DNA from: Artemia franciscana
Taxonomy: Eukaryota; Arthropoda; Branchiopoda; Anostraca; Artemiidae
Assembly (NCBI RefSeq): GCF_032884065.1
Contig: NC_088867.1
Span: 45,385,453 to 45,449,452, forward strand
Direction: 5' to 3'
DNA: 64,000 nucleotides
The translations under genes and the position numbers were made by a program. Of the stretch, positions 2,113 to 53,986 are shown one piece after another (within the stretch, counting starts at the first letter, position 1; every line of letters begins with the position of its first letter). Below the pieces are notes generated by a model. The model did not search any database and was not told where the DNA came from. It was given only the letters and a program-made list of their open reading frames with translations.

Positions 2113-2787
<675 letters not shown>

Positions 2788-2934
2788 TAGCTGTTGGGGT
2801 GGCGCTTCGCGCCACCCCAAGCCCCCCCCCGCGCGCGTAAGTAGTTACGCGCCATATTAGTTACGCGCCATTGTAGTTGTGTCCCTGTGTCCCACCTGTG
2901 AATAGAGATAGATATAAATATATGTTTTTAACTA

Positions 2935-3080: not shown

Positions 3081-3480
3081 TAATGATGTGTCCCTGTGTC
3101 CCGGTCGTCATTTATATTCCCTGTGTCCGGTCGTCATTTGTGTCCCGGTGTCCCAGTTTGTAATTTCTCTTTGAGTGTCCCGGTCGTCATTTATAGTCCC
3201 GGTGTCCCGGTCGTCATTTGTGTCCCGGTGTCCCGGTCTGTAATTTCTATTCGAACAATCCCTGTGTCCCGGTCGTCATTTATATATCCCGCCTGTGCCC
3301 CCGGCGTCCCCGTTGTAGTTGTGTCCCTGTGTCCCGGTCGTCATTTATATTCCCTGTGTCCCGGTCGTGATTTGTGTCCGGGTGTCCCAGTCTGTAATTT
3401 CTCTTTGAGGTTCCCGGTCGTCACTTATATTCCCTCTGTCTCGGTCGTCATTTGTGTCCCGGTCTGTAATTTCTCTTTGA
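3080..3480. repeat. CCCGGTCGTCATTT minisatellite
   Basis: Imperfect tandem copies of a 15-35 bp unit with core GTCCCGGTCGTCATTTAT, mixed with GTGTCCCTGTGTC variants. The reverse complement (GACGACCGGGACA) appears at about 1590-1870 and 5400-5525, so it belongs to the Helitron family. Apparent ORFs across it are repeat artefacts. Confidence 0.85.
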
Positions 3481-21613: not shown

Positions 21614-22488
21614 CTAGAATCAAGGCAGCAATTGAAATTTCTTAGAAAATTATCAGTTGCCATATCTGAATCCTCCGTGGATATTACCTCCTGCCAATCC
21701 AATAGTCGAAGGCTTTCATTCAGGTGCTTTAATGTTATTTTATTTATTAACCGTCCTTGACGTTCCTTACTTACCTGTGGTATTTTATAAGTAAGAGCTA
21801 AATCTGAAACCAGCAGGAAATGATCCGATATATCACTTAAAACAGCAAAATTTGCTTGAATAGGTAAAGATGTAAAAATATTATCAATGAGAGAAGCAGA
21901 ACTAGGTGAAATTCTTGTAGGTATCAGGCAAGTAGGAAGCAGACACGCAGAAAAGCAAGAAGACAATAACTCAACAGAGGATTCATTTGAAGCTTCTAGA
22001 AGGTCAATATTGAAATCTCCGGAAAGGATTACATCTTTATTTTGAAAATGGGGTTGATGCAAAAAATCATGGAGTTTAGAGAGGAAAGATTTGACTGGAG
22101 AAGAAGGCGGTCGGTATACTACGCAAAAAAAAACATCTTTTTTTCCAAGACTAATTTCAGTCACCATTACTTCAAAAAGCATTTCCTCATGAGAACCTTC
22201 CAGATTTGCAATGCGTCGAAAAGAGATACCTTCTTTAACTAGTACTGCTAAACCACCCTGGCGCCTAGTCAATCGGTTTTTAAAAATAAATTGATATCCA
22301 GGAAAAACAACCTGAGGAGTCAGGTCTGTAAGAAAAGTCTCACAGAATCCAACGACATGACAAGATAGTTTATGAACTACATCGACAAGATCATCCTGTG
22401 AACTAAAAAAACCCCTACAATTTAAAAATCCTGTTCTCACAACACCGGTACTGGGAAGATCAGAAACTTCGGAAGGTAATTTATATTT
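21568..22488 (-). pseudogene. Element B ORF2, APE endonuclease part
   Basis: The frame opens after TAA near 22491 and reads through GFLNCRGFFSSQDDLVDVVH, GFCETFL (catalytic Glu), YQFIFKNRLTRRQGGLAVLV, VVYRPPSSPV, VILSGDFNIDLL (metal-binding Asp/Asn) and ISDHFLLVSDL (SDH motif), i.e. a complete APE-like endonuclease that nicks the target. No convincing ATG is present before GFLNC, so the start is uncertain (GTG at 22440 or upstream). It runs out of frame at 21610, where copy 2 (53457-53459) has one more G. Confidence 0.88.
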
Positions 22489-32508: not shown

Positions 32509-33350
32509 TTACGGGGGGAGGGGGGGTTTCTTCTAGCGTTGTTGGATTGTAGAGTTTTTTATGAATTGAAGTTGGATTGTGGCATGGGAGCTTTATAGAT
32601 AAGGGAAACAGACTAGGAGGGTTCTATTGACAAGTCTCTATAACCATGGAGATGAAATCATTATCATGACGTTTTGGTCTGCCGAGATGGGCAGATTCCC
32701 TTGGGAACTAACCAGTAGACAATAGGATCTGTACCTGTACATTGACGCAAAGACAAACACAATTATTAACAATAATTTTATTTTCTTACTTCATATACAA
32801 CTTTAGGTAAAATGACTCCAATGAAAGATAGCAGTATAATGTGCATCAGAGAGTGACTACCAAAAACTGAATTGCACTCCTAACTTTTGGTTCACCTTAT
32901 ATATCCCGAATCAACCCGGATTTCTAAATTAAGCACTGGGTAGACCTCAGAAATGTTGCAACACAACTCTTATTTTGATTATACAACATAAATCTAATTT
33001 TGGTAGTCAAAAAAAGTATCATTTTGTATTGTTTTCGACTACCAAAATTGGTAGCTGTAAAATTTGCTGTAATTGCGAAATTGTAACCAAAATTGCTTGC
33101 TGTAAAACTATCATTAAAAACTATCAAAAAAGGTATTATTTTCGACTACCAAAATTGGTAGCTGCAAAACTTGCTGTAATTGCGAAATTGTAAGCAAAAT
33201 TGCTTGCTGTGAAACTTGTGCCAAAAAAGTAAAACTTTGTTTTACTTTTGTAAAATTTTTGTTTGAAACCTTCTAAAGTGAACGAAATGAGAGACTTGGT
33301 TTTGAGTTCTGAAAGGAGGGGGGGAGGGGGTTGCTGGTCCATATGTTACA
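32509..33350 (-). repeat. 3' LTR of the gypsy-like element
   Basis: Shared with 48318-49160 from TTACGGGG to GTTACA. It contains an internal ~140 bp duplication (CGACTACCAAAATTGGTAGC twice, at about 33039 and 33143). The outermost bases read GATTACGG instead of TGTTACGG as at the inner edge of the other LTR, so the exact terminus is uncertain. Confidence 0.93.
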
Positions 33351-33366
33351 TATCCCCTATCCCGCT
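33351..33366 (-). other. Polypurine tract
   Basis: On the minus strand AGCGGGATAGGGGATA lies directly upstream of TGTAACATATGG, the start of the 3' LTR. Its position and purine richness (13 of 16) fit the plus-strand primer of a gypsy-type element. Confidence 0.6.
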
Positions 33367-35083
33367 GTAGATTGACGCCCTCGTCAATCAGAACGTTCCC
33401 TGTCCTTAAATTTTATCTTTCATACAGTTTCTTATTGTCAATATATTCTTATTTTAATTCTTTCACCACAAAAATGATTATTCAAAGAGAACGTATATCA
33501 AACACCTTGTATTGAACCTACACCTTACACTTGAATTATATTAATACATCACTTGACATGAATAAGGTTTATACGTGAATACCTGGTTTCAAAATTTTTT
33601 TATTTTTTTTGTATTTATTTAGTTTTTAATTGATCACAGGTATTCTTACAATAAAGTGTAAAATATACAACATTATATAAAAAGAATTACCACTTGCACT
33701 TTTATTAAGTTTCAACTATTCACTACTTGGCACTTTTTAATTGTTCATCACTTAGTATTTCGGGAATATTACACACCGATCACAATTCTCGTGTCCTTGC
33801 CCTATTTACTGATTGAACTAATATAATGTCATTCTTTAATTTATCACCCTTAAGTTTTTTTTGTTTCTTGAAAATTTAGCAACCGTACAGTCTGTCTTGT
33901 TATTACGCTTTTACAAAATGGGAAGTGCAGGACTTGGAACACCTATCCCCAGGAGTTTAAGTACAAAAGTACACACGGTACTACGGTTCTTCCGTTCCTT
34001 TCCCGCTCCCTTCTGTATTTTAAGCGTTATTCTTATTGTCTTTAATTTATTTGACTGAGGTAGTATTTAAAACCTTACTTTGTGGTTGACTCTAAAGTTT
34101 ATAAGAATAGGAATTTAGAATGTTCTGTTTGAATCTTCATCTAGGTCTGATGTTGCTGATATCGGGTCTCCATGTTGAATTAGGTTACCATCTTTGGTGC
34201 CTTCGTGGGTATGTTGTGGTTGTATTTGCTGGCTGGAGGTTACGTCTTCTCTAGCCTACGGTGTTCAGTCAGAAAGATGAAAATGATTGTAGTATGGTAG
34301 ATGGCGCTATTTGAGGTGTCATGTGGGTGATAGCCTTCTGGTTGAATCAGGTGTTTTCGGGCATTCTTCGGCGGTTGACGAATCATGATAGGCGTTTTCC
34401 AGTTTTTGACCATGACGTATCGTCGGTCAATGTCAAGAGTATGCCAAGTTCTGTAATAAAAAAAAATTTCCAGGCAGAATCATATGGTTATTAAATAGAA
34501 TAGTAACAATAGTATATAATTATAAAAGCGATGGTTGTAATTAACATTAACTATTGTGACATTTAATTGCACTTGTTTCAAGAATGATTGAGTATATGAT
34601 TAGTATATGATTATATGATTAAACAAGTAACACTGTTTAAAAGCGTTGGTTAAGAACATAATTAATTTTGAGGTTTTTTCTTTTTTTTGTATCTTTCTAA
34701 TCCTTTATACTCCCAACGCAAGGCTTTGTAGAAAAGTAACGTCTTTTTATAGCGTCATAGCCTTTCTATTGCCATGTATTAGGAATATTTAGTTTAGGAA
34801 CACAATATCGAAAATTACAAGAGACAACCTCCACTCTCTTGTTTATATTAAAAAGGGACAAGTGATTTATACTTGTCAGAGGTCTAGATTTTACATAAAA
34901 ATTTTCTGCCAAATATTTATATTTTTGATGTAATTCCGCCAAAAAGAAATACAATTAAATTGTATCTTAGCCTTTTAGCTGTAATACACCAACAATATTT
35001 ATTAAGGTAGGGACTGGATATATGAATATATGGGAAAAAGACCTCGATTTTCCTATACTGTTATATCCTCCCTTTATAATGGC
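33367..35083 (-). other. Region between env and 3' LTR
   Basis: About 1.7 kb, mostly AT-rich and non-coding. The exception is a higher-complexity stretch at 34115-34450 described separately. Possible regulatory or 3' UTR sequence; no motif recognised. Confidence 0.5.
34115..34450 (-). CDS. Small ORF after a splice-acceptor-like site, 3' of env
   Basis: On the minus strand TTTTTTTTATTACAG ends at 34451, a strong acceptor. The following frame is open for ~69 codons (TWHTLDIDRRYVMVKNWKTP, then MIRQPPKNARKHLIQPEGYH) to TAA 34242-34240. A second frame just downstream is open to 34117-34115 with Gln/Thr/Asp-rich sequence ending DLDEDSNRTF. The base composition is clearly richer in GC than its surroundings. 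It could be the last exon of a small spliced accessory protein, possibly now frameshifted; no homology is recognised. Confidence 0.35.
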
Positions 35084-38000
35084 TTAAATATAATCAGGAG
35101 CCGTAGGGTTTAATTGGTGCATTTCTTGTGCATCAATTACATCGTTTTTTTTTCGTCTCAAGAGCTTTCCATAGTTTACTGTGAGTAGCGCTCTCATTGT
35201 TAGAGATATAAGAAATACCATAAATATGGTGATTATTATATTGTACCAGGAATTTGGTGAGAATAATCCGTATTGACTTTCCACATACTTTAATCTTTGG
35301 TCTTCGGTCGTGAACAACGGTATTTGTAGGTCTAATGCCTCTTTTATTTTTGCTAACTGCATAGTACCCTTAATTTTCTCTATCCTGGGCCATAGTGACA
35401 TTTTTGATTCTTCGTTGTTCATGTTTTGTATCGTATAAGACAAATTTATTCCTTGGAAATGTATTATTTTTGGGCTCATAACATTTGTGCTAGTTGTGAT
35501 CAAAGGTGTTTGTACAGTTGTTTCTTTTGTCACGAGTCGGCAACCTTGTTTTATTGTAATTGTTCCAACGTCCTGTAATAGTATTTCGGTTCGATAACTG
35601 GGGTCAATCTTTTCTGTATTGTTATAGCATGATAGAGTTCCTACCGTCTTTCTAGGTACAGTAAATAGCCATAAGTCATTTCGTAAATTAATGAAGATTT
35701 CTCTTTTTGTGCTTCCTACTAAAGCATCACATAAGCTGGGAATATCTTGCTGTTGTGATTCCTTTAGGTAGAGATCTAGTATGCATAATCCGATTTTTAC
35801 ATTATATATAGGTAGCGTTAGTTGGCAGACTAAATTCTTAAGAGATACGCATTCTTTTAAATCCTGTGAATTGGCTAGTGCATATTTCCTTCTGTCTTGA
35901 TCAATTAGCATATATTCTGCTTCAGGCGTAATGCTCATGAAAGAATTGGTCTCTTTAATATTAATTGGAAAAGTAGATATTTTGTATAGATCAAATATGG
36001 ACTGTTGATTAATTAGTGGGATTGTTACGACAGCAAACAGTTGTTTATTAATTTCAGTAATATGCACCTTTAGTTTGGTATAATATAAGAACAAGTTAGC
36101 TACTTCTGGTTCTACTGGTAAGCCGAGACCAAAGGTTAAGTGAGTTTTTATTTCGTTTAGGATGTTCTTAAGGTCAGAAGGATCTACTAAGTCGTAAGAA
36201 AGGGCTCCTCCTGTTAATTCAAATAACGCGAATTCAAATTTATTGACATCAGTAGCTAAGTTCAACAAAGACATAATGACAATGTCGAGTGATACCATTG
36301 TTAGGCTGGAATCGGAGATTATTCTGTCTACTTCATTTTTTAAATAATTCATTGTGTTGACCGTTCTTGAGATTTTTTTAGAAATGGCCTCAATTTTGTC
36401 TTTTTGATAGTTGGCTATACTTGCTTGTATTTTTTGTACATGGAGTGTTGTATTCATGGCTGTATTGAGCCTTTTAACATTATCTCTCAATATATTTAAA
36501 TCTTCCTCGGTTGACAAACCGAATAATCGAGATGCAAGCTCCCCTACTATTGGGATTAAACTTGTTGATCTTTTATATTTACTCCTACGGAAAAATACTT
36601 CAAATATACGTGCTGTGCTTTGTTTAAGTTTTTGTATTTCTGTATTGAATAGTTCAAATAACGCTTCCAACCTTTGTCTATATAATATGAGGAAGGCCTG
36701 ATGGGTTGATATTTTATGAGCATTTTCCATGGTTAATTCCGGGAGGGGTTCTAATTCAGTCTTCGCTGGTTCGTCAGCCATGGCTAGTCGTGCGCAAGTT
36801 TTTTTACCGTCTATACTCCAACATTCTCTCCAGTGGTTTTCATCTTGGCATTTTTTGTCCCCTTCCATGCATTCTGTTCTGCTATAATCGGTGTCGACGA
36901 AAGGGATTTGCCATCTAACTTGTATTCTGCCTCTTTTCTTTGACGTCGAAATTAAACTAGTGGATCGACATGGTTGCCTTACTGTTATTAAAATTTTATT
37001 ATTTCTACTTGGTACTAGTACACTAGGGACAATTTCTGTAGTAATTTCTCACATTGAAGTGTCTAATTCTATTGGTTGTGGGTCATTAATCAGAGGGTTT
37101 GATGTGGGGAATGTTTCTGCCATTTCTATTATTGGGTTAAGTTCAGTTTCGATCGTTGTTGGAGTAAACTAAGTTTCTGCTGTGGTTTCCTCGTTCTGAG
37201 TATTGTACTTCCAGAAGGTCGTCGTTTCATATTTCCTTGAAGTGCTTTTAGAAGTCTTCATTATTTCGTTTAAGTTTTCTTCGGTATTAGAAGTAAGACG
37301 TGGAATATGGGAGGTCGTGTTTATTTTGGTAGCTTCTGTTGTAACGTGTATTATTCTACAGAAATATTGACATTTAAATTTGTATTTCGGTTTGCTGGTA
37401 CCATTAGTGGAATTTGATCCTACTTCAATATTTTCTATACCCCTTATTATCTCTGGTATTTTATTTGTTCGTGTTACAAGGTCAGATACAATGTTTGTTG
37501 TTTGGGTTTCAATTGCAGCGGTTTGTTGTGTGTTTGGGGAAATATTTGTTATATCTTTCTTTTCAACTTCTGTTGGCTTTATTTCAGAAAAATTTATTTC
37601 TCCTTGTACGGGTTTATTCTCAGCCTTGATAGCTCGTTTTGGTCCATTCCATAGTTCTTTGAAGAAATTCCATACTGTGGGCAATTCGTTTAATAATGCA
37701 TATTGTCCATCGTAAAATTTTCCTTGTCTAATTTGGGTCTTATTTGGTTTGATTATGTTTTGGGTCTCTTTATCGTTGTCTAAGTTTTGGTTTTCACTAA
37801 TAGATCTCTTTTTTCTTTTTTCAATAGCTTTTCTGAGTCCTATAGCTTTATCAATTTTGGCCATTTTTGTATCAAAATCATCAACTATTTTCTTTATTTT
37901 GATTTTGGGATAGGTAGGAGATGGATAGGTAAGGGAAGGTATATCTTTCTTTTCTTTATGGTTGCTTTTGCTTGCTTGCAGTCCCTTGTCCAATTTTAGA

Positions 38001-38221
38001 AATTGAAAGATTGATTCCTTTAAGTCATAGGTATTTTTCTCTAGCCTTAATACTTGTTGAAATAAAGTTTCGAATGGTTTAGGGTCTAGTTTCATAAATA
38101 TTTTCCACGCGTTGTTACTGGTCAGAAGTGAGTTTTCATGCTTGAAAATCATTCCATGTTTTATGATATCTTGTGTGTTGGAATGGACGCACAGGGTCAT
38201 CAATATTGTTATCAACTTCAT
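35084..38221 (-). pseudogene. env: F-type envelope glycoprotein frame with two in-frame stops
   Basis: One reading frame of 1046 codons. It starts with a signal-peptide-like segment (MKLITILMTLCVH) and is interrupted by TAG at codon 351 (37171-37169) and TGA at codon 391 (37051-37049). The C-terminal part, open for 594 codons from an ATG at 36868, has a furin-like site (RRSKYKRS), a following hydrophobic fusion-peptide-like stretch, heptad-rich sequence, a membrane anchor near the end (WYNIIITIFMVFLI) and a ~35-residue tail. This is the layout of baculovirus F / errantivirus Env proteins. The N-terminal ~450 codons, Lys/Thr/Asn-rich with a second basic site (KKRS), exceed the usual length of that family. 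The stops make this copy non-functional. Confidence 0.75.
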
Positions 38222-38460
38222 TATTTCTAGAAGAGTTATTTCAGTGATTAGCGGAAATAAGATTTTTTATTTTTTTTTTTGGGGGGGGGGGTTGTGTTAA
38301 ACTTTGTTGGAGCTATACCACCTTAATTATTTTTTTTTCCTTTACCACTTCCGCCAATATTAGGTGTTAATATCATTAGTATATAACACAAACCGTATAA
38401 AGTAAATTAATTTTCTCTTTTCCAAGGAATTATGTTAGTCTTCTCTCTTTAAATTAAAGT
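38222..38460 (-). other. Spacer between SOCS-box ORF and env
   Basis: Low-complexity AT-rich sequence with T and G runs at 38265-38290. It may hold the splice acceptor for an env subgenomic RNA, but none is clear. Confidence 0.4.
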
Positions 38461-39012
38461 TTAAGTTTTTTTTACAGATTTTTTATTATTTATATTAAAG
38501 ATAGGTCCTTTTTCATCAATTTCTTTAAATTCTGATTTTAAAGATTCACTTGTTCTAAAATTTATTATTAGTATATGGTCGCTGTTTTTTATATTAATAT
38601 ACATAAGATAATCTACAAGACATTTTGGTATTTTAAAACTTTCTAATGTATGGTTAGTGCTAAATTTTTGCATAATTGTCCGTATTTTGTTTCTACATAG
38701 TCCTTTTAAACTTGATTGATTAGTTGTATTGCAATTTATTTTATATTTGAATAAATTATAACCAAAAGAATGATTGACAAATTCTACTATAGTTTCAGAT
38801 ACGATGATGTCTGTTCCCGGAAAGATTTTTGACCATAAGTATTGTTTATTTTTGTAAAAATGTACAGTTAGTTTCTTTAGTGCATCGTAATCTTCTCTAT
38901 GTAAAACGGGACATCCTTCTAAGATTTCATTTTGTAAATTATTATTGACGTATTTGTTGTAAACTGAGAGAATTAAGTTTGATTTAATTGATAATTTTAA
39001 GTCTTTTTCCAC
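38461..39012 (-). CDS. SOCS-box accessory protein, C-terminal part
   Basis: A 183-codon frame. Residues ~100-140 read SLKGLCRNKIRTIMQ, ten more residues, then LESFKIPKCLVDYLMY. This fits the SOCS box: an elongin-B/C-binding BC box (L-x3-C-x3-hydrophobic) followed by a Cul5-box-like hydrophobic-Pro-x2-L-x2-Y-L. It resembles the box that ends ankyrin-repeat/SOCS-box (ASB) proteins, where it recruits a Cullin5-RING ubiquitin ligase. Here ~40 more residues follow it. The frame starts by a shift from upstream coding sequence (39472-39060). It is intronless and lies between the ANGEL-like gene and env. The substrate-binding part is not identifiable by eye. Confidence 0.65.
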   Translation of the reverse strand: MEKDLKLSIKSNLILSVYNKYVNNNLQNEILEGCPVLHREDYDALKKLTVHFYKNKQYLWSKIFPGTDIIVSETIVEFVNHSFGYNLFKYKINCNTTNQSSLKGLCRNKIRTIMQKFSTNHTLESFKIPKCLVDYLMYINIKNSDHILIINFRTSESLKSEFKEIDEKGPIFNINNKKSVKKT

Positions 39013-39059
39013 TAATATTAATATGAGATGTAAAGGCCAGATAATTGTGAAGTCATTTA

Positions 39060-39472
39060 CATCACAAAATATCTAGATGTTCGGTAATTAGTTCTCCTAT
39101 CAGGGGGTAATTCTTATTGGTGATTTTATCAAGTATTGTTTTAAATGTTATTGATGAAAATTTTCTTATATACTCATAACCCTCCCCGACTACTTCTTCT
39201 CAAAATTGACAATTTAATATTACATTCATTACATCCTTAATTAAATAGCTTTTAAATATGATTGGTGTTCTTAAAAATTTATAATTTAGATTTCTCACTG
39301 CATTAATAATCAAGCTGTTCCAAATTCCTTCGTTTAATTCATGGTTAAACTTGTATAAATTAGGTAAACTATAATAGTTTTCATGAGAAACAGGTTTTAT
39401 TTGGTCTAGGAGGTTATATTGTGTTTCATTTTTCTCGAGATTAGGGTTACTCCTTGTTCTTCTTATAGGCAT
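39060..39472 (-). pseudogene. N-terminal part of the SOCS-box accessory gene, broken
   Basis: ATG at 39472 opens 90 codons (MPIRRTRSNPNLEKNETQYN, then helical sequence) to TGA at 39202-39200. The same frame then continues open for ~45 more codons to about 39062, where it abuts, one frame over, the sequence leading into the 39012-38461 ORF. So one gene of roughly 330 codons appears broken by one stop and one frameshift. Ankyrin-like helices are possible (a DVND..WPLHL-like stretch near the junction), but no clear repeat is seen. Confidence 0.5.
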
Positions 39473-39661
39473 TTTGTTAGTTTTATTAATTCAAGCAGGA
39501 TATAATTTATATTTACCTGTTATTGTGGGATTAAGTTGTGGCTTATCTAGAAATAGTATTATATTAATATATATATTTTTTTTATTTTTTTTTTATTTTA
39601 GAATTTAAATTTATTATTTCTATAGGGTCTTTTATTAAAAAGTATTTAACAAAGTATATTA

Positions 39662-40786
39662 TTATTTTTTTTCGCAATTCCAACGAAATCTTGCTTCAAG
39701 GTAATAGTGGTCTGATCCATTTTGACTATTAGGTAATGATCCTATTTTTAAGCAGTCCGTGTATGTTGGGGGACGAAGCCTTTCTAATAGTATTACTTCT
39801 TGTTTTTCATGTTTGTTCAATTTTTCGTCAATATTACTGTAGAGAATATAGTCAACTAAATTGTAACAAGTCGAATTCAAACGAACTTTTGGAAATTTAT
39901 CTGAATTATAAACACTTGTAAAGGCAAATTTATGCGTTAATGTACCGGATGAAAAAATTTCTTCTTCAATGCAGTTATTCTGTTTTAGTTCTTGTAAGTA
40001 ATGACAAGAATCAGAAATATATAGCTCCTTTGGGAGAAAGGTTTTCCCAATTTTTTGTGAACCACAGTCAGTTAGTTTTTTTATATCTAGGTGTTCATAC
40101 TTAAGCCTTCCTTGGCTTAAAAAAGAGTATAATTTGCTTGAAGGGGTTAAATTTAAATCACCACAAAGAATAACTGGAAAGTAGTTAGTATTTTTGCAAG
40201 CAACGCGGTTAATTTGTGCAAGAAGTACTTGGAGTTGGGCTAAACGCACATCTTCTCTTTTACGGTTGTATAACAAATGCGTGTTTACAATGCATATCTG
40301 TTTATCCGGGATCTTAAATGGGGTGAGAATAGAAATAAGTGCAATGTTATCTCGATTAAGTAGATCTATTCCATTCTTTAGCATTTCTAAGGAATGATCT
40401 TCTTTTAGGCTAAATTTACATTTCTTAAAAAAGGTGGCACACCCATCAATCTTTCCTTGGGTTTTTTGTTTAAACACTCCGTCATACCCCTGAGATTGAA
40501 AATACGATAAGTAGGTTTTATAATAATAGTCAGCCCCCACTTCCTGTAAGCATACAATATCTGCGTTTTACATTTTGAACTGGTTAAAGAGTCTTTTTTT
40601 TCTATCTGGCCATTTTAAATTTTCTTCGTTACATTTATAGTACAAATACGGCATTGTTTCGATATACCCTTGAGCTAGTACATTATATGACATAATTGTA
40701 AAATTTAAAGATTGAGTTTCTTGGTTTTCGTTTGGCCTTTGACAATTTCTTGGAGTTTCCCACTTTCTGATTTCCGTTAGATTCAT
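39662..40786 (-). pseudogene. ANGEL-like (CCR4-family) EEP-domain nuclease/phosphatase
   Basis: One frame of 375 codons from ATG 40786, with a single in-frame TAA at codon 73 (40570-40568). Before the stop it has FTIMSYNVLAQGYIE, the conserved EEP opening with the catalytic Asn. After it come CLQEVGADYYY (catalytic Glu), DGCATFFKKCKFSL, NTHLLYNRKREDVRLAQL (a signature of the ANGEL branch), LCGDLNLTPSSKLYSF (catalytic Asp/Asn), NLVDYILYS and GSDHYYLEARF (terminal Asp-His). Order and spacing match ANGEL1/ANGEL2, relatives of CCR4 deadenylases; human ANGEL2 is reported as an RNA 2',3'-cyclic phosphatase. It is intronless and within the LTR element, so it was probably captured from a host mRNA. 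All catalytic residues I can locate are retained. Confidence 0.85.
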
Positions 40787-41990
40787 TTTCTTACAATCCT
40801 TCCCTTTTTTGAACTTGGTGTTAATTGGTATTACTATTAAGCAGTATATAAGTTTAAGGTTACCTGTTTGGCTTGGTATTCAGTTGATGATCTGGAAATA
40901 TTATGGTGTTAATTTATTTATGTCAGAAGGACTTAAGGTATTTTACTTCTATATGCAAATTTTTTTGCGGCGCACAATGTGGCACAATATGGCGTAAGGA
41001 ACAGCGCATTGAGTGTTTTTCACTCAGCGCGTCGTAACCATTCAATGGACATATTTATTAAATATATAACGATGTCTTGAACTAGTTAACATTTTAAGTG
41101 TTAACTAGGTTAATAGGTAAACCTAATAGTTTCTATTTAATGAATATAAAATGATTGCACTTTTTAATTTTTTCTTGAATATAAACTTTGGTTAGCCAAA
41201 GTGTAGTGAATATTTAAGTGCGATCTTGATACCGCAGGGAGGATGAAGTAGATTTGATGCCAAGTATGAATGTCTGTTAGATATTGCAAGTTATGGCTAT
41301 ATTAATGTCGTTTTTTAGCTAAAAATTATTATTCGAAGCCACTAAATTTATTTAATAGTAGGGAGGCGAACTAAGAATATGCCCGAAAGGAGTATGACAA
41401 TTATAAAATTGCAAAGTAAATTTGAACAAGTTTGGCTATGACTACAATTTACGAAGACGCTTGTTGTCACTTGACTATTTGTAATAATTTTTTGTTAAGG
41501 CTACTAATGAGTTTTTATTTACTATTATTTGATGGTTATCTCTATAAGCTTTATGTTTTGCAATATTTTAGTTTTTATGGTAGATAAAGTGACAGCGATT
41601 CCTATAGGGCAGGTGTTAGTTATAGTTGTGTTAATAAGCTTTTGCGTTAAGGAATTATTATTGCGGTAGACTATAGTAACAAATTAGTAGCAAAAATTTT
41701 TTTTTTCGTTATTCTTGTTAAATAAAATAGTTTTGGGACCTACTCACAATACTTAGCGGTTTTTGATGAAACAGGCCAATTTTTCAATTTTTGATTAGGC
41801 AGACTTCCTGAAAAGTATTTTCTTTAGGGACTATATATTACAGGATGATTTCTTAGCGAAACCAATTACAATTAGCAAAAAAAAATGACTATTTTTTTTT
41901 TTCCTTTATTTTATCCAAGGCTGATAGATTTTTTATATTAAAAATCTAATTTATCTGCTTTTTTGACAACCCGGCCGGATCTTGTTGTTA
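40787..41990 (-). other. Non-coding spacer between pol and the ANGEL-like gene
   Basis: About 1.2 kb of AT-rich sequence with no frame of note. It could contain promoter or splice signals for the downstream accessory genes; none is recognised. Confidence 0.5.
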
Positions 41991-42065
41991 TCTGTTCTTC
42001 TTTAGGCTCCGTTTTTTTCTTTGGTTTTGCTAGTGATATTAAGTCAAATTTTTTATACTGTTTTT

Positions 42066-44359
42066 TCAGAAATTTTGACCTTTTAATTGTGCTTTTTTTG
42101 CCTGGGCCGCTGCACTGGGTGGTCTTATTTCTTCCGATTCCTTGAACTTATCTGAGTCTGATTCACTATCCGTATCTGAGGAACTAGTATTTGTGGATTT
42201 ATCGCCTGGTTCTTTTGAAGAAGAAGAAGTTTGAGATTTAGGCGTTGATCCTGCTTGTGCTTCAAAAATTTCTTCGCCTCGCGAAGTAGAGGGTCTACTA
42301 ATAGATTCGTCCTGTTGATTTCTGGGCTCGGGAGAATTGAACGATTCTTGGAAGCTTTGGGAGGATTCAAATGTCTTCTTGGGGTGCCTCCATTGCTTGA
42401 AATCCATATCTTCCGGGGGGTGGGGGGTTTTGCATTAAGGTTTCCTTCCAAGATACCCAGTCCTTTGGTTTTGCCTTTGAGACGGTTATATCGTGATACT
42501 GTTGTTCATCAGTAGCTGGATTAGTATAAAATGTATTCTGTCTAGTCTTAATTGGGTAATTAATGATAACCATTGCTTCTCTTAATGTTTGTTTTTGGGG
42601 TTGTATGTCCTTTTGTGACTCTATGTCCCCAAGAGTCTGTATAGCCTTATTTAATTCATCGTGTAACGATAAAGGTCTGTCTATCGGTGAAACAGGGTTT
42701 ACCAGATTGTCGGGGAAACGGTTTGGGGGGTAAGGGGTTGAAATTTTATCTGGAAAAAATTGTGATTTTGGAGAAATCGTATAGTCCAATCCTTCTGACT
42801 CCTCACTGGAAGATGAATCACTATTCCTCCGTCTCCGCGTAACGGGGGTACTTTTTTGTGGGGTAACCATATTTGTCATAGTTAGAAATTCATTAAATTT
42901 TTCTTCGTCACTACTGTTTTCAAAATATCCTTGTTTAAAATTAAAAGGTTTAAGCTCACTTGGTCTAGAACGAGGTGGTTCATTTTCGTCCTCTGAGGTA
43001 TTTGATGTTGAAGGTTGGGGGGTCCATGTTTCTGTGAATTTTGCCCTTTTTATACGACTAACATGCGTTTTATAGGTTTTTCCTGTTTTTGGTTTTAATA
43101 GTTTAAATGTAACATTATTATCATATCTCTTAATTATTCTTAACGGTCCCAGGTATCGGTCCGAAAGCTTCTTGCCGTCCGATTTGTTTTCATTTTTTAA
43201 GTAAACGCAATCTCCTACTTGGAAATCGAGTTTACCTTTGACGTTAGGAATACTTTTTGCCTCTTGCTTCCTTTTTGATTTTTCTATTTCTTGTTTTACA
43301 AGTTTATAAGTTTTCCTCATTCTATTGATAAATTCCTGTTTATAATCTTGAGAATCATTATAAAATTGTCGCGACTGTATAATTTCATTATAGGGGATTC
43401 TAAAGTCTCGTCCGAATAATATATTTAAATGGGTTATCGCGTATGACATGGGAATAAGCTGTATTAATTATATTTGTTAAATAAGGTAAGGTTTCGTGTC
43501 AATCCCTGATATTTTCTTTCGTATAAATACTTAAAATATTAGAGAATAGTTTGTGTCTGTTCTCTATTTTCCCATTGGCCTGGGGGTGATAGGGGCTCGA
43601 TACCAATTTACTTATTTGAAGAAAAGACATTAAATCCTTGGTTACTTTTGACACGAAGTTAGGGCCATCATCGCTTAATACTGTTTTAGGAATACCGAAA
43701 TTAAGGAATATTTTAGCGAGAGCTTTTGACGTTGCATACGCGCTTTGACTTTTTAATGGTTTAGCAAATGTGAAACCGAAAAAGTGATCAATTATTGACA
43801 GTACACAGGTGTGTTCTTCATTAGACGTGGGTAGTCCTCTGCTAGTATCATATGAATCAAAAGAAACTATATCAAATAGGAACCGGGCCGTAGGCGTTCT
43901 TCCTATCGCTGGATTAGGGTAGACTTGAGGATTTTTTCTTAAATTACATGTTTCACAATTATTAACGTGATTTTTTAACTTTGTTAAGGCTGAAGTAACG
44001 AAAAAGTATTGTTTCAATCTATGGAAGGTCTTATCTATTCCCAGATGACCTCCCACTTCAGAAAGAAAAAATTCAAAAGCGGGTTTTTCCAAAATTTGGG
44101 GTAACACTGGTACAATAGAAGTTTGATTTCTTTTATCGCTATCGGTCATTATTTTACATAGTATTTGTTCATCTAAATCGTAATAATAATTATCAATTTC
44201 TTTTTTAAAAGATTTCATTTCAACGGGTAGTTCTTTATCATATAAGAAATATTCTATTAGAGCAGCACAAATGTTGTCTTTCTTTTGATATATTTTTATA
44301 TTATTTAAAGATAGTGGGCTGTCTTTGTGTTTTTCTTCTACCAAATTATTGGTCTGCAT
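42066..44359 (-). pseudogene. pol: Integrase and long acidic C-terminal tail
   Basis: 44359-43499: zinc-binding region GGHLGIDKTFHRL and NNCETC, then the catalytic core with FDIVSFDSYD (first Asp), VLSDDGPNF (second Asp) and HPQANGKIENRHK (Glu). After a short break the 43449-42367 frame continues the core end and has a GPY/F-like segment (DRYLGPLRIIKRYDNNV). It then becomes a ~250-residue Ser/Pro/Glu-rich tail that shifts frame in a C/G run at about 42415 and continues, Ser/Asp/Glu-rich, to 42066. Integrase inserts the cDNA. The tail is unusually long and may be a chromatin-targeting or protein-interaction region. Confidence 0.85.
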
Positions 44360-44476
44360 TTTTAAATTTTTATTTTTTGGAGCATGTTTTCCTTTTATCG
44401 TGTTAATTTCTTCATTTTCATCTTCTAAGGGGGCATTATCTGGAAATCTACTAAGGTAGTCGCATGGGGCGTTTTG

Positions 44477-45902
44477 TTATCCTTTGAGATGTTCAAATTC
44501 ATAATCTAAATCCTGGATTTTCAGAATCCATCTCGCGAGTATTCCCGTTGGCTTTTTGAAAGTTTGTAGGTATTGAAGACTTTTGTGATTGGAACGTAGT
44601 TTAAATTTTCTTCCTACCAAGTAATGTTTAAATTTTTCTAAATGGTGGATAATCGATAATAATTCAAGTTGTGTCGCAGAATAATTACTTTCTCCAGGTG
44701 TAAGAGTACGCGAAGTATATGCTAAAACTTTTTCTTCCCCGTTTATTATTTGGGAGAGAATCGCCCCAATTCCCTTGGTTGAGGCATCCGTAGTAACAAC
44801 GAATTGTCCTGTTTGGAAGTCGGGTAAACATAAGATAGGTTCTGAAGTCAAAGCCTTTTTCAAATGATCTAATGAATTTTGAGCTATTTTAGACCACGTA
44901 ATTTTTTTGGTGTTTCCTCTTGTGAGGTCCGTGAGAGGTTTTGCTACTTGTGCGTAATTTCTTATAAATTTTCGAAAGTAGCTCATTAATCCTAAGATTT
45001 CTCGCAATTGTTTAATTGTTTGAGGGGGTTTTATATTTTTAACAGATTCTATCTTTTCAGGGTCTGGGGAAATTTGTCCTTGTGTTACAACTACTCCTAA
45101 AAATTTTAGTTTGGTTTGAAAAAGATTTACTTTTTCTGGTCTACATTTTAAATTGCCTTCTCTAAATTTCTCAAAGACTTTTGCTAGGGTTACTAAATGG
45201 TCTTCAGTATCTTTGTCCATAGCTATGACGTCATCAACAAAATGAATTATGTTATTTAGACCTCTCAATAAATGAAGGAGGGGTCTACACAATGCACTTG
45301 AACTGGTTTTTAGTCCAAATGGTACTCTTAAGTATTCGTAAGAACGACATTCTGCTGTTGAAAAAGCTGTTTTAAAAATATCGGCCCCTTTTATATTTAC
45401 TTGATGATAACCTTGTGTCAAATCTAGGGAAGTAAATATTTTATTTTTATTTGATATTGAATCTAGAATTTCGTCTATTCTAGGCAGGGGAAATGTGTCA
45501 CTTACTACCTATTTATTTAAAGCTTTATAATCTACCACTAATCTAAGGTCATTATTCTTTTTCGGGACTTAAATAACGGGGGGCGGAGTATGGGCTTATG
45601 CTTGGCCTTATGATTCGATTTTTTCTGAGCTCATGTATTTTGTTTATTAGCCATTCTTTATGTTTATAAGGAATCCTGTATGGTTGTTTTGCAACTGGCG
45701 GCCCCGTAGTTTGTATTGCGTGTTCATAAAATGGGATAAGTCCTATGTCGTCTTCAGATGTCGAAAAGACATCTTTATATTCCCACAATAAGTCGCATAA
45801 TTTTCGTTTTAATGAAACATCGGTTATGTGACTTATTTCAAATTTTTCAAGAAATTGAGATCTCGTCAGTGGATATTCTTTGTCAACTTTGATATTATTC
45901 AC
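44477..45902 (-). pseudogene. pol: Reverse transcriptase and RNase H
   Basis: The frame 45902-45552 holds the RT N-terminus (EHAIQTTGPPVAKQPYRIPY, then IIRPSISPYSAP). After a frame change, the LDLTQGYHQV motif and the core from 45421 follow (YEYLRVPFGLKTSSSAL; active site HFVDDVIAM), then the thumb and RNase H (VVTTDASTKGIGAIL with the first Asp, ATQLELLSII with the Glu). An in-frame TAG lies at about 45511 and a TAA at 44479-44477 before the spacer to integrase. In RNase H the position usually TDH reads SNH, so a metal-binding Asp may be lost. Confidence 0.85.
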
Positions 45903-46197
45903 TAAGTTTTTTTTCCGAATTTTTCCAATTATTAATATCGGATTCCGATACCATTTGTATCTCTACTAAACATGTACCTTTACTTAGGGTGATTAGGTCG
46001 TTTTCGTGGGTGTTCGTTACCCAAATATAACCTTCACCTTTTTCGTAATTTATAATTTGTTCTTCGCAAACTACATTTTTCGAGAGATCTTCCGACGGCG
46101 ATGCTACCCAAATTTCATTTTTATCATTAACTGGTTCTAACATTTGTGATATTTGGACCCTCTGCATTGACTTAGGGGGAATTTTAGTTTTTCTCAC
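45895..46197 (-). pseudogene. pol: Protease-RT linker region of pol
   Basis: A 100-codon frame (MRKTKIPPKSMQRVQISQML, then GYIWVTNTHENDLITLSKGT) just upstream of RT, overlapping it by 8 bases in another frame. The pattern of short beta strands resembles the region between protease and RT in gypsy elements. There is no catalytic motif of its own. Confidence 0.55.
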
Positions 46198-46389
46198 TAC
46201 GAATCCATAATATTTTTCGTTATGACTTTCTTTTATTGAGTTTAGGATATTATCTTCTGGTTTTTTTTCTGGGAGTTTCTATATTCACTAGTTTTTTCCA
46301 TAAATATGTAATTTCTTGAATTTGTTTTTCTCTATACTCCTTCATGTTGCCTATGTTTTTTTTTTACCTTGTTTGCTCGTATGTTATAT

Positions 46390-46746
46390 ATCTCTGATTT
46401 GTGTCGGATATATAAACTTTGAGTTTGCTACATCTAATAATATTTTATTGGCTTTTAAAAAATTAGCGCCTATTATTGCCTCGTATGGAAAATTTTTACA
46501 AACTATAAATCAAGTATAGAAATTTCTGTTATCTTTGCGCAAGGCTAGGTACACCGTGCCTTTTACATCCAGGTCATGTCCAGTCACACTTGATAAATTG
46601 GGACATATATTGCTCATTCGTCGTTTAATATAATTGGGTAATTTGTTAAATACGGATGTATTTATCCCATTGACGGTTGCCCCTGAATCTATAAGGGCTG
46701 AGAAATAAATATTTCCTGCATTAAAATTTTCAAATACTGGTAACAT
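46390..46746 (-). pseudogene. pol: Aspartic protease
   Basis: FSALIDSGATVNGINTSVF contains the DSGA active site. The frame meets TGA at 46512-46510 and continues in the same phase with YEAIIGANFL, the second conserved element of retropepsins (hydrophobic-hydrophobic-G), to about 46390. It would cleave Gag-Pol after assembly. The stop inactivates it. Confidence 0.75.
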
Positions 46747-46879
46747 ATTATTATTATTTGCACTTAAAAATGGTATTATTACTGGAGGGGACCTATAAAT
46801 TATCTTGCCACCAAATTTTGGTCCTACGAATTTTGGGGGCTTATATCGTTTCCCTGGGGCTCCCAGATGTCAGGTGTAG

Positions 46880-48004
46880 AACTTTCATTTGTTCTATTTT
46901 GGGTTTCTTGATTATTATTTGAGTTTTAGCTATTATATGGCTGCCATCGGCTGATATTTTTTCCTCTTGTATTTCCGTTCCAACTATTACTGGGTTGATT
47001 CGTCCTTTCACGATACCCTCCGCGATATTGATACGTATTGCGTTGGAAATTCTGATTTGGGGTGGGGTAATTATTTCTTGTTACAAAGGTGTTCCCTCAA
47101 TTGTCTCTAGGGGCGTACCCACAATAGTTTGTCCCCCTGGACAAACGGTTACCCGTTCCCCTAATATTTGGGCAATAAATATTGTTTCCGAAACAATTTC
47201 TTGCGATATGTCCTGACCGGTTGCAGGTGTAGCACCTAAGTGGTTCATTAATGGCTTGTGCCCTCATTTGATTATTGGGGGCAAAGCGTACTTGTCTTGG
47301 AGGTGTGGTGGTTCAAACTTGATTTCGAAGCGGTTTTGGCAATGATTCTCTGAAAAAAAATTGCGGAGAGGGATCTCTTGATTTTATAACTGTTTTACTT
47401 TCTACTGCATTTATTGACAGTTTTTGATGCTGCAGGACTATGGAATCAATTTCCACGGCTGTCTCTATCTCCTGAACTGCCAGTTCTAAGTCGTCGATAT
47501 TTTTGGAAATTAAGAGACGATATAATTTTGGGTTGAGTCCCTCTTTAAATGCGTTTAGTATTATTTTTTCATACAATTCCCCTTCACCTGGACCGTATCG
47601 CGCTTCTGTTGCAATTCTAATTTTATTTAAATATTCCCTGACGTTTTGGGTCTGTTCGAAAGTTAGTAATCCATGTTTTAGTTTGTTCAATGAACTAGTA
47701 TCGATGAATCTCTTTTGAAAAGCCTGTTGTAATAACTCTATTGAGTTAATTGTCGAGGTGGCTTCTGTTCCTACGGTATTTTCAATTTGTTTTAAAAATG
47801 TCAAAGCCTATCCTTTTAGTCTTAAGAGTAGCATGTTTTTTAGTACTTTAAGTCGATTTTTGTCATTTCCACGAATTGTCCTAAATGGATGTTGAATTGA
47901 TCTACATCTGTATCCCCTTCATAATCAGGTAATGATTTGGTAATTTCTACCGAAGTTGCAAGAATTTGTTGCGCTTTTAATAATTCATCTTGCTTCTGAG
48001 CCAT
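46880..48004 (-). pseudogene. gag: Gag with CCHC zinc knuckle
   Basis: ATG at 48004 (MAQKQDELLKAQQILATSVE), with a frameshift near 47868 and TAG just above 47804. The 47804-47313 frame (FLKQIENTVGTEATSTINSI, then QTQNVREYLNKIRIATEARY and KIILNAFKEGLNPKLYRLL) is a retrotransposon Gag capsid domain. After TGA at 47315-47313 the same phase continues to a CX2CX4HX4C knuckle, CYTCNRSGHIARNC (47234-47193), and a basic Asn/Arg-rich end with more stops. It binds and packages element RNA. Confidence 0.8.
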
Positions 48005-48302
48005 ATTTGTTATTTTAGTTCAGTTTTTATTTAAAGAATTATTGAAGCTATTCGGTATATAATAATTTAGTTTTTTATAAAATTTATTGGTATTTCATTT
48101 TAACTACTGAAGATTCTAATTATTTTTAGATGGGGTACTCAAAAAAAAGATACACAAGTAGAAATAAAACTATACTGCACTTAAATAATGTAAAATTAAA
48201 TGCACTTAAAATCAAAAAATAATTTGTGAATAATCATATTTGTCTAGGGTAGCAGGTAGTCATGTTGTCAGGCATATACAGTTCCGTTAGTGTCTTTATT
48301 GA

Positions 48303-48313
48303 CGACCGTGCCA
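48303..48313 (-). other. Primer-binding site
   Basis: On the minus strand TGGCACGGTCG begins two bases after the 5' LTR end (CCGTAACA). TGGC-starting PBS sequences complementary to a tRNA 3' end (CCA) are usual in Ty3/gypsy elements. The matching tRNA was not identified. Confidence 0.65.
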
Positions 48314-48317
48314 AATG

Positions 48318-49160
48318 TTACGGGGGGGGGGGTTTCTTCTAAAGTTATTGGATTGTAGTGTTTTTTATGAATTTAAGTTGGATTGTGGCATGGGAGCTGT
48401 ATAGTTAAGGGACACAGACTAGGAGGGTTCTATTGACAAGTCTCTATATCCATGGAGATGAAATCATTATCATGACGTTTAGGTCTGCCGAAATGGGCAG
48501 ATTCCCTTGGGAACGAACCAGTAGACAATAGGAACTGTACCTATACCTTGACTCAAAGACAAACACAATTATTGACAATAATTTTATTTTCTTACTTCAT
48601 ATACAACTTCAGGTAAAATGACTCCAATGAAAGATAGCAGTATAATGTGCATCAAAGAGTGACTACCAAAAACTGAATTGCACTCCTAACTTTTGGTTCA
48701 CCTTATATATCCCGAATCAACCCGGATTTCTAAATTAAGCACTGGGTAGACTGACCTCAGAAATGTTGCAACTCAACTCTTATTTTGATTATACAACATA
48801 AATCTAATTTTGGTAGTCAAAAAAAGTATCATTTTGTATCGTTTTCGACTACCAAAATTGGTAGCTGTAAAACTTGCTTTAATTGCGAAATTGTAACCGA
48901 AATTGCTTGCTGTAAAGCTATCATTAAAAACTATCAAAAAAGGTATTATTTTCGACTACCAAAATTGGTAGCTGTAAAACTTGCTGTAATTGCGAAATTG
49001 TAAGCAAAATTGCTTGCTGTGAAACTTGTGCCAAAAAAGTAAAACTTTGTTTTACTTTTGTAAAACTTTTGTTTGAAACCTTCTAAAGTGAACGAAATGA
49101 GAGACTTGGTTTTGAGTTCTGAAAAGGGGGGGGGAGGGGGTTGCTGGTCCATATATTACA
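48318..49160 (-). repeat. 5' LTR of the gypsy-like element
   Basis: Direct repeat of 32509-33350, with roughly 30 substitutions and a 4-base indel by eye (about 96% identical). It contains the same internal ~140 bp duplication (about 48845 and 48949). AATAATTTTATTTTC and TATATATCC stretches could serve as promoter or polyadenylation signals, but this is not certain. Confidence 0.93.
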
Positions 49161-49610
49161 GTTTCACTTTTTAAAACCCACATATTTTTAAAGGTCAGGA
49201 CCCTCTAGAGGGAGGGGTAATGGAGGTAGGAGCTTCAAATACCTTCCCAGGACATAATTTAGCCTGTGACCCATCCCTGAAAGTTTCATTTTCCTAACCT
49301 AACCCCTTTCCAAGATAGCAAGAAGTCACTTAACTAGAATTTTCTGTATTAACAGAGCAGGCTATTCAAATAGCTAAGAAATAAACTTATCTTTAGAATT
49401 AGATTTGGTAAAATTCTAGTTAATTGACTTCTTGCTATCTTAAGGGCCCTCTAAAGGGAGAAAGAGTGGAGGTTGGTACTTTAAAATACCTTCCCGGGAC
49501 ATACTTTAGCCTGTAGACCCATCCCTGAAAGTTTCATTTTCCTAACCTAAACCCTTTCTTAGATAGCAAGATGCCAGTTAACTAGAATTTTACCTCATTG
49601 TCACTTCACC
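49161..49610. repeat. Dispersed repeat flanking the LTR element
   Basis: Contains GACCCTCTAGAGGGAG, ATACCTTCCCAGGACATAAT, CATCCCTGAAAGTTTCATTT and AAGATAGCAAGAAGTCA twice, with inverted AAATTCTAGTTAATTGACTT ends. The family recurs at 61655-62890. The first ~80 bp match the sequence expected to follow the left flank at 32508, so the LTR element split one copy. Confidence 0.75.
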
Positions 49611-51087: not shown

Positions 51088-53986
51088 TTTCATTTTTCAT
51101 TTTATTTCATTTATTTATTAATCACACATACATGTATATATAGGCCCATGGGCTCATGGGGAGACAAGCTTGAAAAACTAGGCCTAGGCATACTATAACA
51201 AACTTACACTAGAATACAGAGATAAACATGACGGTAAAGATACAATAGCACAACAATAATATGAAAGTAGCATCTCTGCCTAGGATCGTCCAATATTATT
51301 GAAAAATAGAAAATTTCAATATTATTTAACATTAAATTAATACTGGAAGATAGCTGAGAGCCCCACAATTACCCAGAGCAACAAACCATACAAATAACTT
51401 TGCCTTATTAAAAAAAATGCTTAATTAAAAATAATCCTGAACTAAATGAAATTTAAGTTTCCTTTTTGTTAAACAGATAGAGAAAAATTTATCAATAAGA
51501 GCCTTGTGAGCATCCCAGCACCAAGCTATCAACACAAACAGAGCAAATTTAGATCTGTCAGTATTATACTTGTCAATGTAGATACTCTTTTTTTGTAGAG
51601 TGTTATAATTATGTAAATCTTGTGATTGGGAGAGCAAACTTTGATTGAGGAAATATGGTGGTAATTTCTTAATGTCATAATTGAATTTGAAAAGAATTGG
51701 ACCAAAAGTAAATTGTTGAGAAACTGGAAGTATATCTAGATAAGTATATAAAGATGCTGTTGAAGACTTATTTGGAAGTTCAATAGGTGATGGAATAAAA
51801 AGTTTAAGGATTCTTAGGAGTTTATTTTGTAAAATCTATAGATAAATATTCTAGAGAACAATAATCAATATTAGTCTGAATCAAAGCATAGTAAATACTT
51901 CTTAAAGCAGTGTAGGGTAAATAAAGCTTCAACCTTCGCATTAAACCAACATACCTTGAAATCGTTAAGCATAGATTTTGAATGTGTGTTTAAAAAGATA
52001 AGCTTTCATCAATCACAAGTCCAAGGTACTTTGTCATTTTCACCTGAGATACTGATAATAGATACTTTCAAGAAGTAACTTGGGTAATATGAGGGCAGAT
52101 ATTAGACTTTCTGCTGTAAATTATGAAATTAGTTTTTGGTGCATTCAAAGAAATACAATTTGAAGGACACCAATCAAGAACATTAGAAAATGCAGTATTC
52201 AGTTTTGCCTTGAACTCCTTGTCATTCCTCTCAGAAATTGAAACTGCCATGTCATCAGCAAAATGCATGTTGAGACATGGGAATGTAAAAGTGCAATGAA
52301 GATCATTGATATAAATTAAAAAAAGCTGAGGACCTAAAACAAAGCTTTGAGCTACCCCAACCTTCAAAGACTGAGGTAGAGGCAAAGAAAGGCAATTGCC
52401 TCCATCTAATTGTTGCTTTCCCTTATCAAGATAAGATTTAACTAGATAACACCTGTCTGCACATACCACAATTATCCAATTTTTGAAAAAGAATACAATG
52501 AGATATTGTATTGAATGCTTTTTTAAAATCTAAATATATTGTTGCTGGAATTTCACCTCTATCTAAGTATTCATGACTATATTGGATGAGAGCAACAATA
52601 GCATGTTCAGTATTGTGTCCAGACGAGAAACCAAACTGGGAATTTGTGAAGAAATTAGACGATTTAAAAAAGTCATAAAACCTCTTTTAAATTGCCTTCT
52701 CAAATATTTAGAAAACGCAGACAAAATAGAAATAGGGCAGTAATTAGATGGGTTTTAGGAGAGTCACCTTTTTGAAGTGGAATTATCCTCGCCTCTTTAA
52801 AAGCAGATGGGAAAACTTCAGTTTTCCTCAGTATTACTGAGACAATATCTTTCCTTCAGTATTACTGAAGACAATATCTCTTAAACAATTTTAGAACTAG
52901 ACCTGTCAATTCTTGCTGAATTACCTGGATTTAGATCACATACTATTTTTGTTATTTCAGACTGCAAAATAGGCCCAAGAAAAATTGAATTACTTTGAGG
53001 AGATGGAAGGTATGACAAAAAATGTTTATTACTCCGTGAATCAGACTAGTTCATTGTTGATGAAACAATTTTCTCTCCTATATTAGCAAAATAAGTATTC
53101 AAAATATCAGCCACTTTTTCCGATTTATTAGTAGTCGGTACATCATCTAAGCTAATAACTTCAGGAAACTTAGATTTCCTTTCTTTTTTTTATAAAAGAA
53201 TTAATTAAAGCCCACGTTTTGCGAGGAGAATTTTGAGCTTCTGCAAAAGACTCTTTATAATATCTATGTGTTGACAATTATATCAGTGTGGTTAATTTGT
53301 TTTTGAAAATTCGAAAATTTTTAATATTATAATCAGTTGGATTCTTTAACTGCTTTTTAAATATCTGATTTTTTTTTCTTAACTAATATCTAAATTCCAG
53401 ACGTTATCCATGGCCTTTTAGGAAATTTTTCTCTGCAAATTTTATTTGTAACAAATGGGCAACTAGAATCAAGTTAGCAATTGAAATTTCTTAGAAAATT
53501 ATCAGTTGCCATATCTGTATCCTCTGTTGATATTACATCCTGCCAATCCAACAGTCCATGACTTTCATTCAGGTGCTTTAATGTCATTTTATTTATTAAC
53601 CGTACTTGACGTTCCTTACTTACCTGTGGTATTTTATAAGTAAAAGCTAAATCTGAAACGACGAAATGATCGAATATATCACTTACAACAGCAAAATTTG
53701 CTTGAATTGGTAAAGATGAAAAAATATTATCAATAAGAGAAGAAGAACTAGGTGAAATTCTTGTAGGTATCAGGCAAGTAGGAAGCAGATACGCAGAAAA
53801 GCAAGAAGACAATAACTCAACAGAAGATTCATTTGAGGCTTATAGAAGGTCAATATTGAAATCTCCGGAAAGGATAGCTTCTTTACCTTGAAAATGAGGT
53901 CGATGCAAAAAATCATGGAGTTTAGAGGGGAAAAATTTGACTGGAGAAGAAGGCGGTCGGTATACTACGCAAAAAAAATATCGCCC
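51088..53986 (-). mobile_element. Second copy of non-LTR element B, 5' truncated
   Basis: Matches 19230-22129 end to end: 3' UTR (CCCATGGGGAGACAAGC), RT fragments (51637-51425 and 52469-52068 with HFADDMAVS), endonuclease fragment (53812-53474 with an SDIFDHF version of the SDH motif). It stops abruptly inside the endonuclease at 53986, a usual 5' truncation. Many substitutions, indels and stops break all frames. It lacks the AAGTTC tail of copy 1. It keeps GGG at 53457-53459, where copy 1 has GG. Confidence 0.88.

Follow-up and report, generated by a model that had tools for sequence, protein, structure and literature searches.

A 64,000-nucleotide stretch of the brine shrimp Artemia franciscana (G000:C5:45385453-45449452 in the 1.27-Gb assembly; hereafter the window) carries on its minus strand, from 49160 to 32509, a retroelement with the order 5' long terminal repeat (LTR), gag, protease-like piece, reverse transcriptase-RNase H (RT-RNase H), integrase, ANGEL, SOCS, env, and 3' LTR. 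Judged from its sequence, this is a decayed copy of an env-bearing, Ty3/gypsy-type endogenous retrovirus family of Artemia, other members of which hold a larger cassette of accessory genes between pol and env, comprising a gene termed X, SOCS-box genes, an AKAP7-like 2H phosphoesterase, and an ANGEL-like phosphatase. With a probability of about 0.5, we infer that this cassette serves in counter-defence and is kept by selection for the element.

The LTRs, gag, pol, ANGEL, SOCS-box gene, and env reported in a first-pass annotation of the window are real, and all of them lie on the minus strand according to Pfam matches and the reading of open reading frames (ORFs). The search of the assembly with the LTR and with ANGEL, which that annotation had suggested, revealed a multicopy family, and host-type genes between pol and env recur in many copies as the same genes in the same order and on the same strand. 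The LTR gave 103 matching rows, including a second copy on contig C97 that measures ~20.5 kb from LTR to LTR. Integrases were taken as the best 136 of 1465 candidate places, the window integrase among them; many of these places lie in long open frames, and copies with uninterrupted genes exist. For 20 of the 136 listed integrases, hand-picked and mainly high-scoring, the 10 kb that follow downstream were read gene by gene, and the counts of SOCS and env genes refer to the stretches read rather than to the whole genome. X is present in 18 of these 20 stretches, at least one SOCS gene also in 18, 2H in 14 (one of them partial), and ANGEL in 12, while nine stretches contain X, SOCS-A, 2H, ANGEL, and SOCS-C together.

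In the first subfamily, the order between pol and env is X, SOCS-A, 2H, ANGEL, and SOCS-C. SOCS-B is located between 2H and ANGEL in L013, and it replaces SOCS-A in L019, L022, and L023. Two further stretches represent a second subfamily, with X, SOCS-B, SOCS-D, and 2H following pol in L029, and with SOCS-D, 2H, and an open env but neither X nor SOCS-B in L030.

The association of the accessory genes with the element is also evident from their spacing. At 74 of the 136 listed integrases, a 2H gene in the same orientation follows at a distance of up to 12 kb downstream, with two such cases in the upstream control and none on the opposite strand, and the distances between the two genes are mostly near 4.4-5.0 or 5.5-6.0 kb. 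Conversely, of the 150 listed 2H places, 73 lie in this position relative to a listed integrase and 77 have no listed integrase upstream. Among the matches listed in the search for ANGEL there are 95 rows, eight of which are exons of two cellular copies; merging of the remaining 87 gives 54 places, which include fragments and perhaps other EEP genes. An integrase lies within 12 kb upstream of 29 of these 54 places and a 2H gene within 6 kb upstream of 36; either is present at 40 places and neither at 14, with the corresponding controls at 2, 0, 0, and 0. Nested, independent insertion of ANGEL and SOCS, the main circumstance that the first-pass annotation had named as fatal to its proposal, is ruled out by these counts, since the same order and strand are found in many copies. 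One region (G000:C3608:246451-314530) holds ten AKAP7-like 2H places in ~68 kb with no listed integrase, and may represent either decayed elements in an array or a cluster of host genes.

The copy in the window has lost a part of the cassette. Its segment 42498-41209 aligns by blastn to positions 1861-3139 of the sibling stretch L009, the following 25 bp (41211-41187) align to L009 5276-5300, inside SOCS-A, and match SOCS-A of L027 as well, and from 41186 onwards the alignment resumes at L009 7355. This split alignment with its scrap of SOCS-A indicates, on the level of sequence, that a segment of ~4.2 kb harbouring X, SOCS-A, and 2H is deleted between pol and ANGEL. The pairing of ANGEL with SOCS, presented earlier as the gene set of the element, thus proves to be the remnant of a larger cassette, and the scar likewise rules out the window copy as an ancestral two-gene form. 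The copy is broken elsewhere too, with pol in several frame pieces, one stop in ANGEL, a stop and a frame change in SOCS, and env in two pieces.

The ANGEL frame of the window matches the structure of 'Protein angel homolog 2' (6rvz) with an E value of 4.7e-45, and its best protein match, at 93%, is 'protein angel homolog 2-like [Artemia franciscana]'. The EEP motif residues are retained, in an alignment inspected by eye, in the element-type protein P0001, the frame of the window copy being broken. Four exons at C7:58063567-58073085 encode the cellular protein P0004, covering residues 1-99, 96-155, 154-397, and 395-453. A second, near-identical cellular ANGEL (G000:C7:58291454-58307743) is located ~228 kb away and represents a recent duplicate or one created by the assembly. 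The ANGELs of the elements mostly start near residue 73-79 and reach residue 449-452 uninterrupted across all three exon joints, with identity to the cellular protein mostly of 61-72%, down to 43% in some much-interrupted copies. In a 31-row tree, P0004 forms a group at 100/100 with five rows that are from elements or element-like, and it branches outside these five, which are united at 100/98. Since the exon joints are bridged, it was a spliced mRNA that was captured, and by its sequence relationships the donor is of the Artemia lineage. The earlier suggestion that both extra genes derive from host mRNA is thereby borne out, through exon structure and tree, for ANGEL alone. The element protein resembles cellular ANGEL2, a 2',3'-cyclic phosphatase, in its EEP family and in the motif residues; it differs from cellular ANGEL in that the copies are intronless and, in most of them, the N-terminal ~77 residues present in the cellular protein of Artemia are missing. 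The ANGEL frame is split near residue 65 in L014, L016, L017, L018, L026, and L027, at or near a run of 7-9 A bases; the run has seven bases in the unsplit L009 and L020, and also in the split L027, and slippage or an assembly error is possible.

The SOCS box scores above the curated cut-off of 23.5 bits in SOCS-A (28.2), in two SOCS-B proteins (26.9 and 29.1), and in P0066 (26.1), and below it in the window copy (22.3), P0069 (21.5), SOCS-D (20.4), and SOCS-C of L018 (19.4). The paralogues are 31-46% identical to SOCS-A, with 46% for SOCS-B, 33% for SOCS-C, and 37% for SOCS-D. A BC-box-like SLKxLCR motif is followed downstream by a segment consisting of a proline and a helix. In searches of the PDB, the best match of SOCS-A is the SOCS box of ASB9 (E 0.003; 0.16 with a profile of four paralogues). 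The N-terminal part of SOCS-A was modelled as helices with middling confidence and has no structure match above noise; the ankyrin fold is absent among the listed structure matches of this model, which does not exclude it. Lentiviral Vif, the gene for which is located between pol and env, is similar in being a SOCS-box accessory protein encoded at that position. The Artemia family differs in having four SOCS paralogues as compared to one Vif, with the nearest SOCS box of the ankyrin/SOCS-box (ASB) type. Pfam includes a Vif family, and it is not among the Pfam matches of the accessory proteins, so that the likeness is functional only.

The 2H protein, which is encoded in siblings and not in the window copy, matches AKAP7_NLS with an E value of 1.6e-37 and the AKAP7 structure 5jj2 with 8.1e-24. 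Its diverged counterpart in the second subfamily, ~50% identical, matches AKAP7_NLS with 8.3e-37, and both HxT motifs are kept, as read by eye, in the two subfamilies. The nature of X is less clear. Its 11 relatives in the protein collection include none with a telling name or a Pfam domain, Pfam and NCBIfam gave no convincing family, PDB profiles matched weakly (a pre-mRNA splicing protein, E 0.05; an oligoribonuclease, E 0.76), and the structure model is poor, with a mean predicted local distance difference test score (pLDDT) of 37. Because of the motifs IDTE, TDLLL, and HHPLxE read by eye, the last of which has E in place of the usual D, X may, on weak grounds, be a DEDDh-like exonuclease.

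Vif uses a SOCS box to bind Elongin B/C and Cul5 and so to destroy antiviral proteins (PMC2880568). By analogy, the SOCS proteins, in which the SOCS box follows another domain that is helical in the model of SOCS-A, would deliver a host factor to the ubiquitin ligase of Elongin B/C and Cullin 5. Cleavage of 2',5'-oligoadenylates (2-5A) by AKAP7-type enzymes of viruses and mammals leaves 2',3'-cyclic phosphates and prevents activation of RNase L (PMC8406329), and the 2H enzyme might similarly cleave 2',5'-linked oligonucleotides to 2',3'-cyclic phosphate ends, which ANGEL could then remove. Two modes of action can be envisaged. The two enzymes may act on a nucleotide signal in sequence, 2H before ANGEL; alternatively, ANGEL alone may strip the ends of cleaved element RNA, leaving them unusable for the RTCB ligase. 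ANGEL2 removes 2',3'-cyclic phosphates and so lowers ligation by RTCB, which also serves in 'SOS splicing' against transposons (PMC13247085). In its most specific version, the proposal would be a modular cassette combining a 2',5'-phosphodiesterase and a 2',3'-cyclic phosphatase working in succession with Vif-like adaptors of a ubiquitin ligase, multiplied inside the element, a version that we regard as rather unlikely. If true, brine shrimp would use a 2',5'-linked nucleotide signal or an RNA signal with 2',3'-cyclic phosphates against retroelements. In locusts, cGAS-like signalling has been linked to a gypsy element in a study that itself notes that direct evidence is still lacking (PMC13299631). 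A search of the genome for OAS returned no match, but the control query was also without a match, and the result is therefore uninformative.

Several observations weigh against a counter-defence role. The accessory genes are absent in two of the 20 stretches (L012 and L028), where they must be either dispensable or lost, and in L028 env directly follows pol. (A further gag is located ~3.3 kb on in L028, in keeping with head-to-tail copies that lack accessory genes.) ANGEL is missing from both second-subfamily stretches, L029 and L030, which do have 2H, and joint action of the two enzymes is therefore not a necessity. The enzymes related to 2H that were assayed in PMC8406329 leave cyclic GMP-AMP (2',3'-cGAMP) uncut, which weakens a target of the cGAS type. 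In favour of selection, the pooled ratios of nonsynonymous to synonymous change (pN/pS) are low, at 0.21 in X (6 copies), 0.19 in SOCS-A (8), 0.24 in 2H (10), and 0.37 in the C-terminal portion of ANGEL (6); they come, however, from small, author-picked sets with several near-identical copies and non-independent pairs, with frames taken as they stand and four interrupted copies of X dropped. These ratios reflect the history of the source copies.

What low ratios signify is usefulness to the element, and they are silent on the target. The accessory genes may serve the RNA life of the element itself, by acting on how its transcripts are processed, stabilized, or translated, or by repairing the ends of tRNA primers, a possibility that we consider doubtful although it is in accord with the action of ANGEL-family proteins in RNA processing and decay. 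It would leave unexplained why several SOCS-box paralogues are present, and also why the element should carry an AKAP7-type enzyme, the known viral relatives of which block RNase L. That the genes are functionless passengers of a successful lineage appears very improbable. Many broken copies, that of the window included, and the two stretches devoid of accessory genes would suit it, whereas pN/pS of 0.19-0.37 in four genes, the preservation of both HxT motifs of 2H at ~50% identity between subfamilies, and the EEP residues in element-type ANGEL P0001 would not be expected of passengers.

Other alternatives concern the integrity of the copies rather than the role of their genes. The window element may be a patchwork of two family copies, recombined at its ends or inside, in which case its exact composition would be accidental. 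Its LTRs (32509-33350 and 48318-49160) share 809 identities in 839 aligned sites (96.4%), a Kimura two-parameter (K2P) distance of 0.037, whereas the 5' LTR is nearer to the LTRs of another copy (K2P 0.020 and 0.025); no target-site duplication is visible at the outer ends, and the deletion scar is present. By these LTR distances and the lack of a visible duplication, the two LTRs may stem from different elements, which the first-pass annotation had named as a further refuting circumstance. Even so, we judge a patchwork unlikely, and it would touch the window copy only, since the copy on C97 shows TG...CA termini, is flanked by CATT on either side, and contains the cassette of five genes. Host gene clusters with retroelement insertions, or assembly chimeras, are hardly credible as a source of the whole pattern. 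They would account for 2H places clustered without a listed integrase, as on the contig with ten of them, and for the 77 of 150 that have none upstream; missing integrase neighbours are nevertheless expected, because the integrases considered are only the best 136 of 1465 candidates. This alternative is largely refuted by the order, strand, and spacing, which are fixed at numerous places across many contigs, the controls being close to zero.

The family shares with errantiviruses and other insect endogenous retroviruses of the Metaviridae (Ty3/gypsy) the presence of LTRs, gag, pol with the integrase following RT-RNase H, and then env. It differs from them in the presence of as many as five or six additional genes after pol and before env, as well as in size, a sibling extending over ~20.5 kb. 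Of the earlier designation 'errantivirus-like', an env-bearing, gypsy-type element stands, with the name errantivirus itself reflecting gene order and the presence of env. Env forms a single open frame in a sibling; there was no Pfam match, even for an open sibling env of 1036 amino acids. A small ORF after env, suggested previously as possible, is not conserved as a gene: its 62-residue piece contains stops in all three matched siblings and a 79-residue piece is split or gapped, with the DNA of the region 88-91% conserved in the three siblings.

No description of such an element is among the papers listed in literature searches, one of which listed 20 of 3,912, as judged by titles and the openings of abstracts, with subscription papers mostly outside this scope. 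Gene capture by giant gypsy-like elements is already known (PMC6431247). The Burro elements of planarians described there are also giant, gypsy-type, and equipped with domains suggesting interference with apoptosis and ubiquitin systems, but their domains are different (MATH/TRAF, BCL2-like, and ubiquitin-like) and are mostly inside the polyprotein. Capture of AKAP7-like enzymes is known for nidoviruses and rotaviruses (PMC10835031), and hijacking through a SOCS box for lentiviruses (PMC2880568). The former resemble the Artemia family in that a virus-like genome encodes a 2H phosphoesterase of the AKAP7 family, whereas in Artemia the enzyme resides in a reverse-transcribing element of a crustacean, beside ANGEL in one subfamily; the main text of PMC10835031 is without the strings 'retrotranspos', 'retrovir', and 'invertebrate'. 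An AKAP7-like enzyme, SOCS-box proteins, and an ANGEL with a nameable cellular donor in one family of endogenous invertebrate retroelements would demonstrate that routes of counter-defence have converged. What 2-5A-cleaving enzymes do in invertebrates is unknown according to PMC8406329, and the Artemia elements would offer a natural entry to that question.

Features of the element in the window (positions counted within the window)
Feature	Position	Strand	Basis or remark
5' LTR	48318..49160	-	starts TGTAA; 96.4% identity with partner LTR
Possible primer-binding site, starts TGG	48300..48313	-	inferred from the sequence adjoining the 5' LTR
Gag pieces	47100..47804	-	Retrotrans_gag E 2.4e-4, below its cut-off, at 47313-47804
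CCHC zinc-knuckle piece of gag	47100-47312	-	read by eye
Protease-like piece with DSGA motif	46513..46869	-	open piece; assignment by motif
Reverse transcriptase and RNase H	44477..45421	-	RVT_1 E 5.5e-16, RT_RNaseH E 4.6e-31
Integrase	43499..44359	-	Integrase_H2C2 E 6.4e-11, rve E 2.9e-8
Integrase C-terminal extension	42367..43449	-	SH3_Tf2-1 E 3.3e-4, below cut-off; colinear in siblings
Deletion scar, 25 bp of SOCS-A between two deletion ends	41187..41211	-	blastn against sibling stretches L009 and L027
ANGEL-like EEP phosphatase gene, intronless	39662..40879	-	Exo_endo_phos E 2.7e-6 at 39662-40540; one in-frame stop; corrected start at about 40879
SOCS-C gene, C-terminal SOCS box	38461..39490	-	SOCS_box E 1.6e-4 at 38461-39012, just below cut-off; corrected limit, reaching about 39490
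Env, two pieces	35084..38266	-	basic cleavage-like site, then hydrophobic stretch (by eye)
Region 3' of env, probably non-coding	33351..35083	-	DNA 88-91% conserved; ORF pieces interrupted, split, or gapped in siblings
3' LTR	32509..33350	-	outermost bases unlike the TG...CA form of another copy

Both LTRs contain a 107-bp unit in ~1.8-1.9 repeats (33026-33227 and 48842-49037). A family of short motifs in direct and inverted orientation adjoins the element at 49268-49594, and a similar motif is repeated at 61655-61775. Elsewhere in the window, frames resembling the endonuclease and reverse transcriptase of non-LTR retrotransposons were recognized by eye at 19550-22440 and 14612-16955, with a fragment at 52068-52469, and a tandem array of ~133 copies of a 16-bp unit with strong GC skew occupies 10135-12227.

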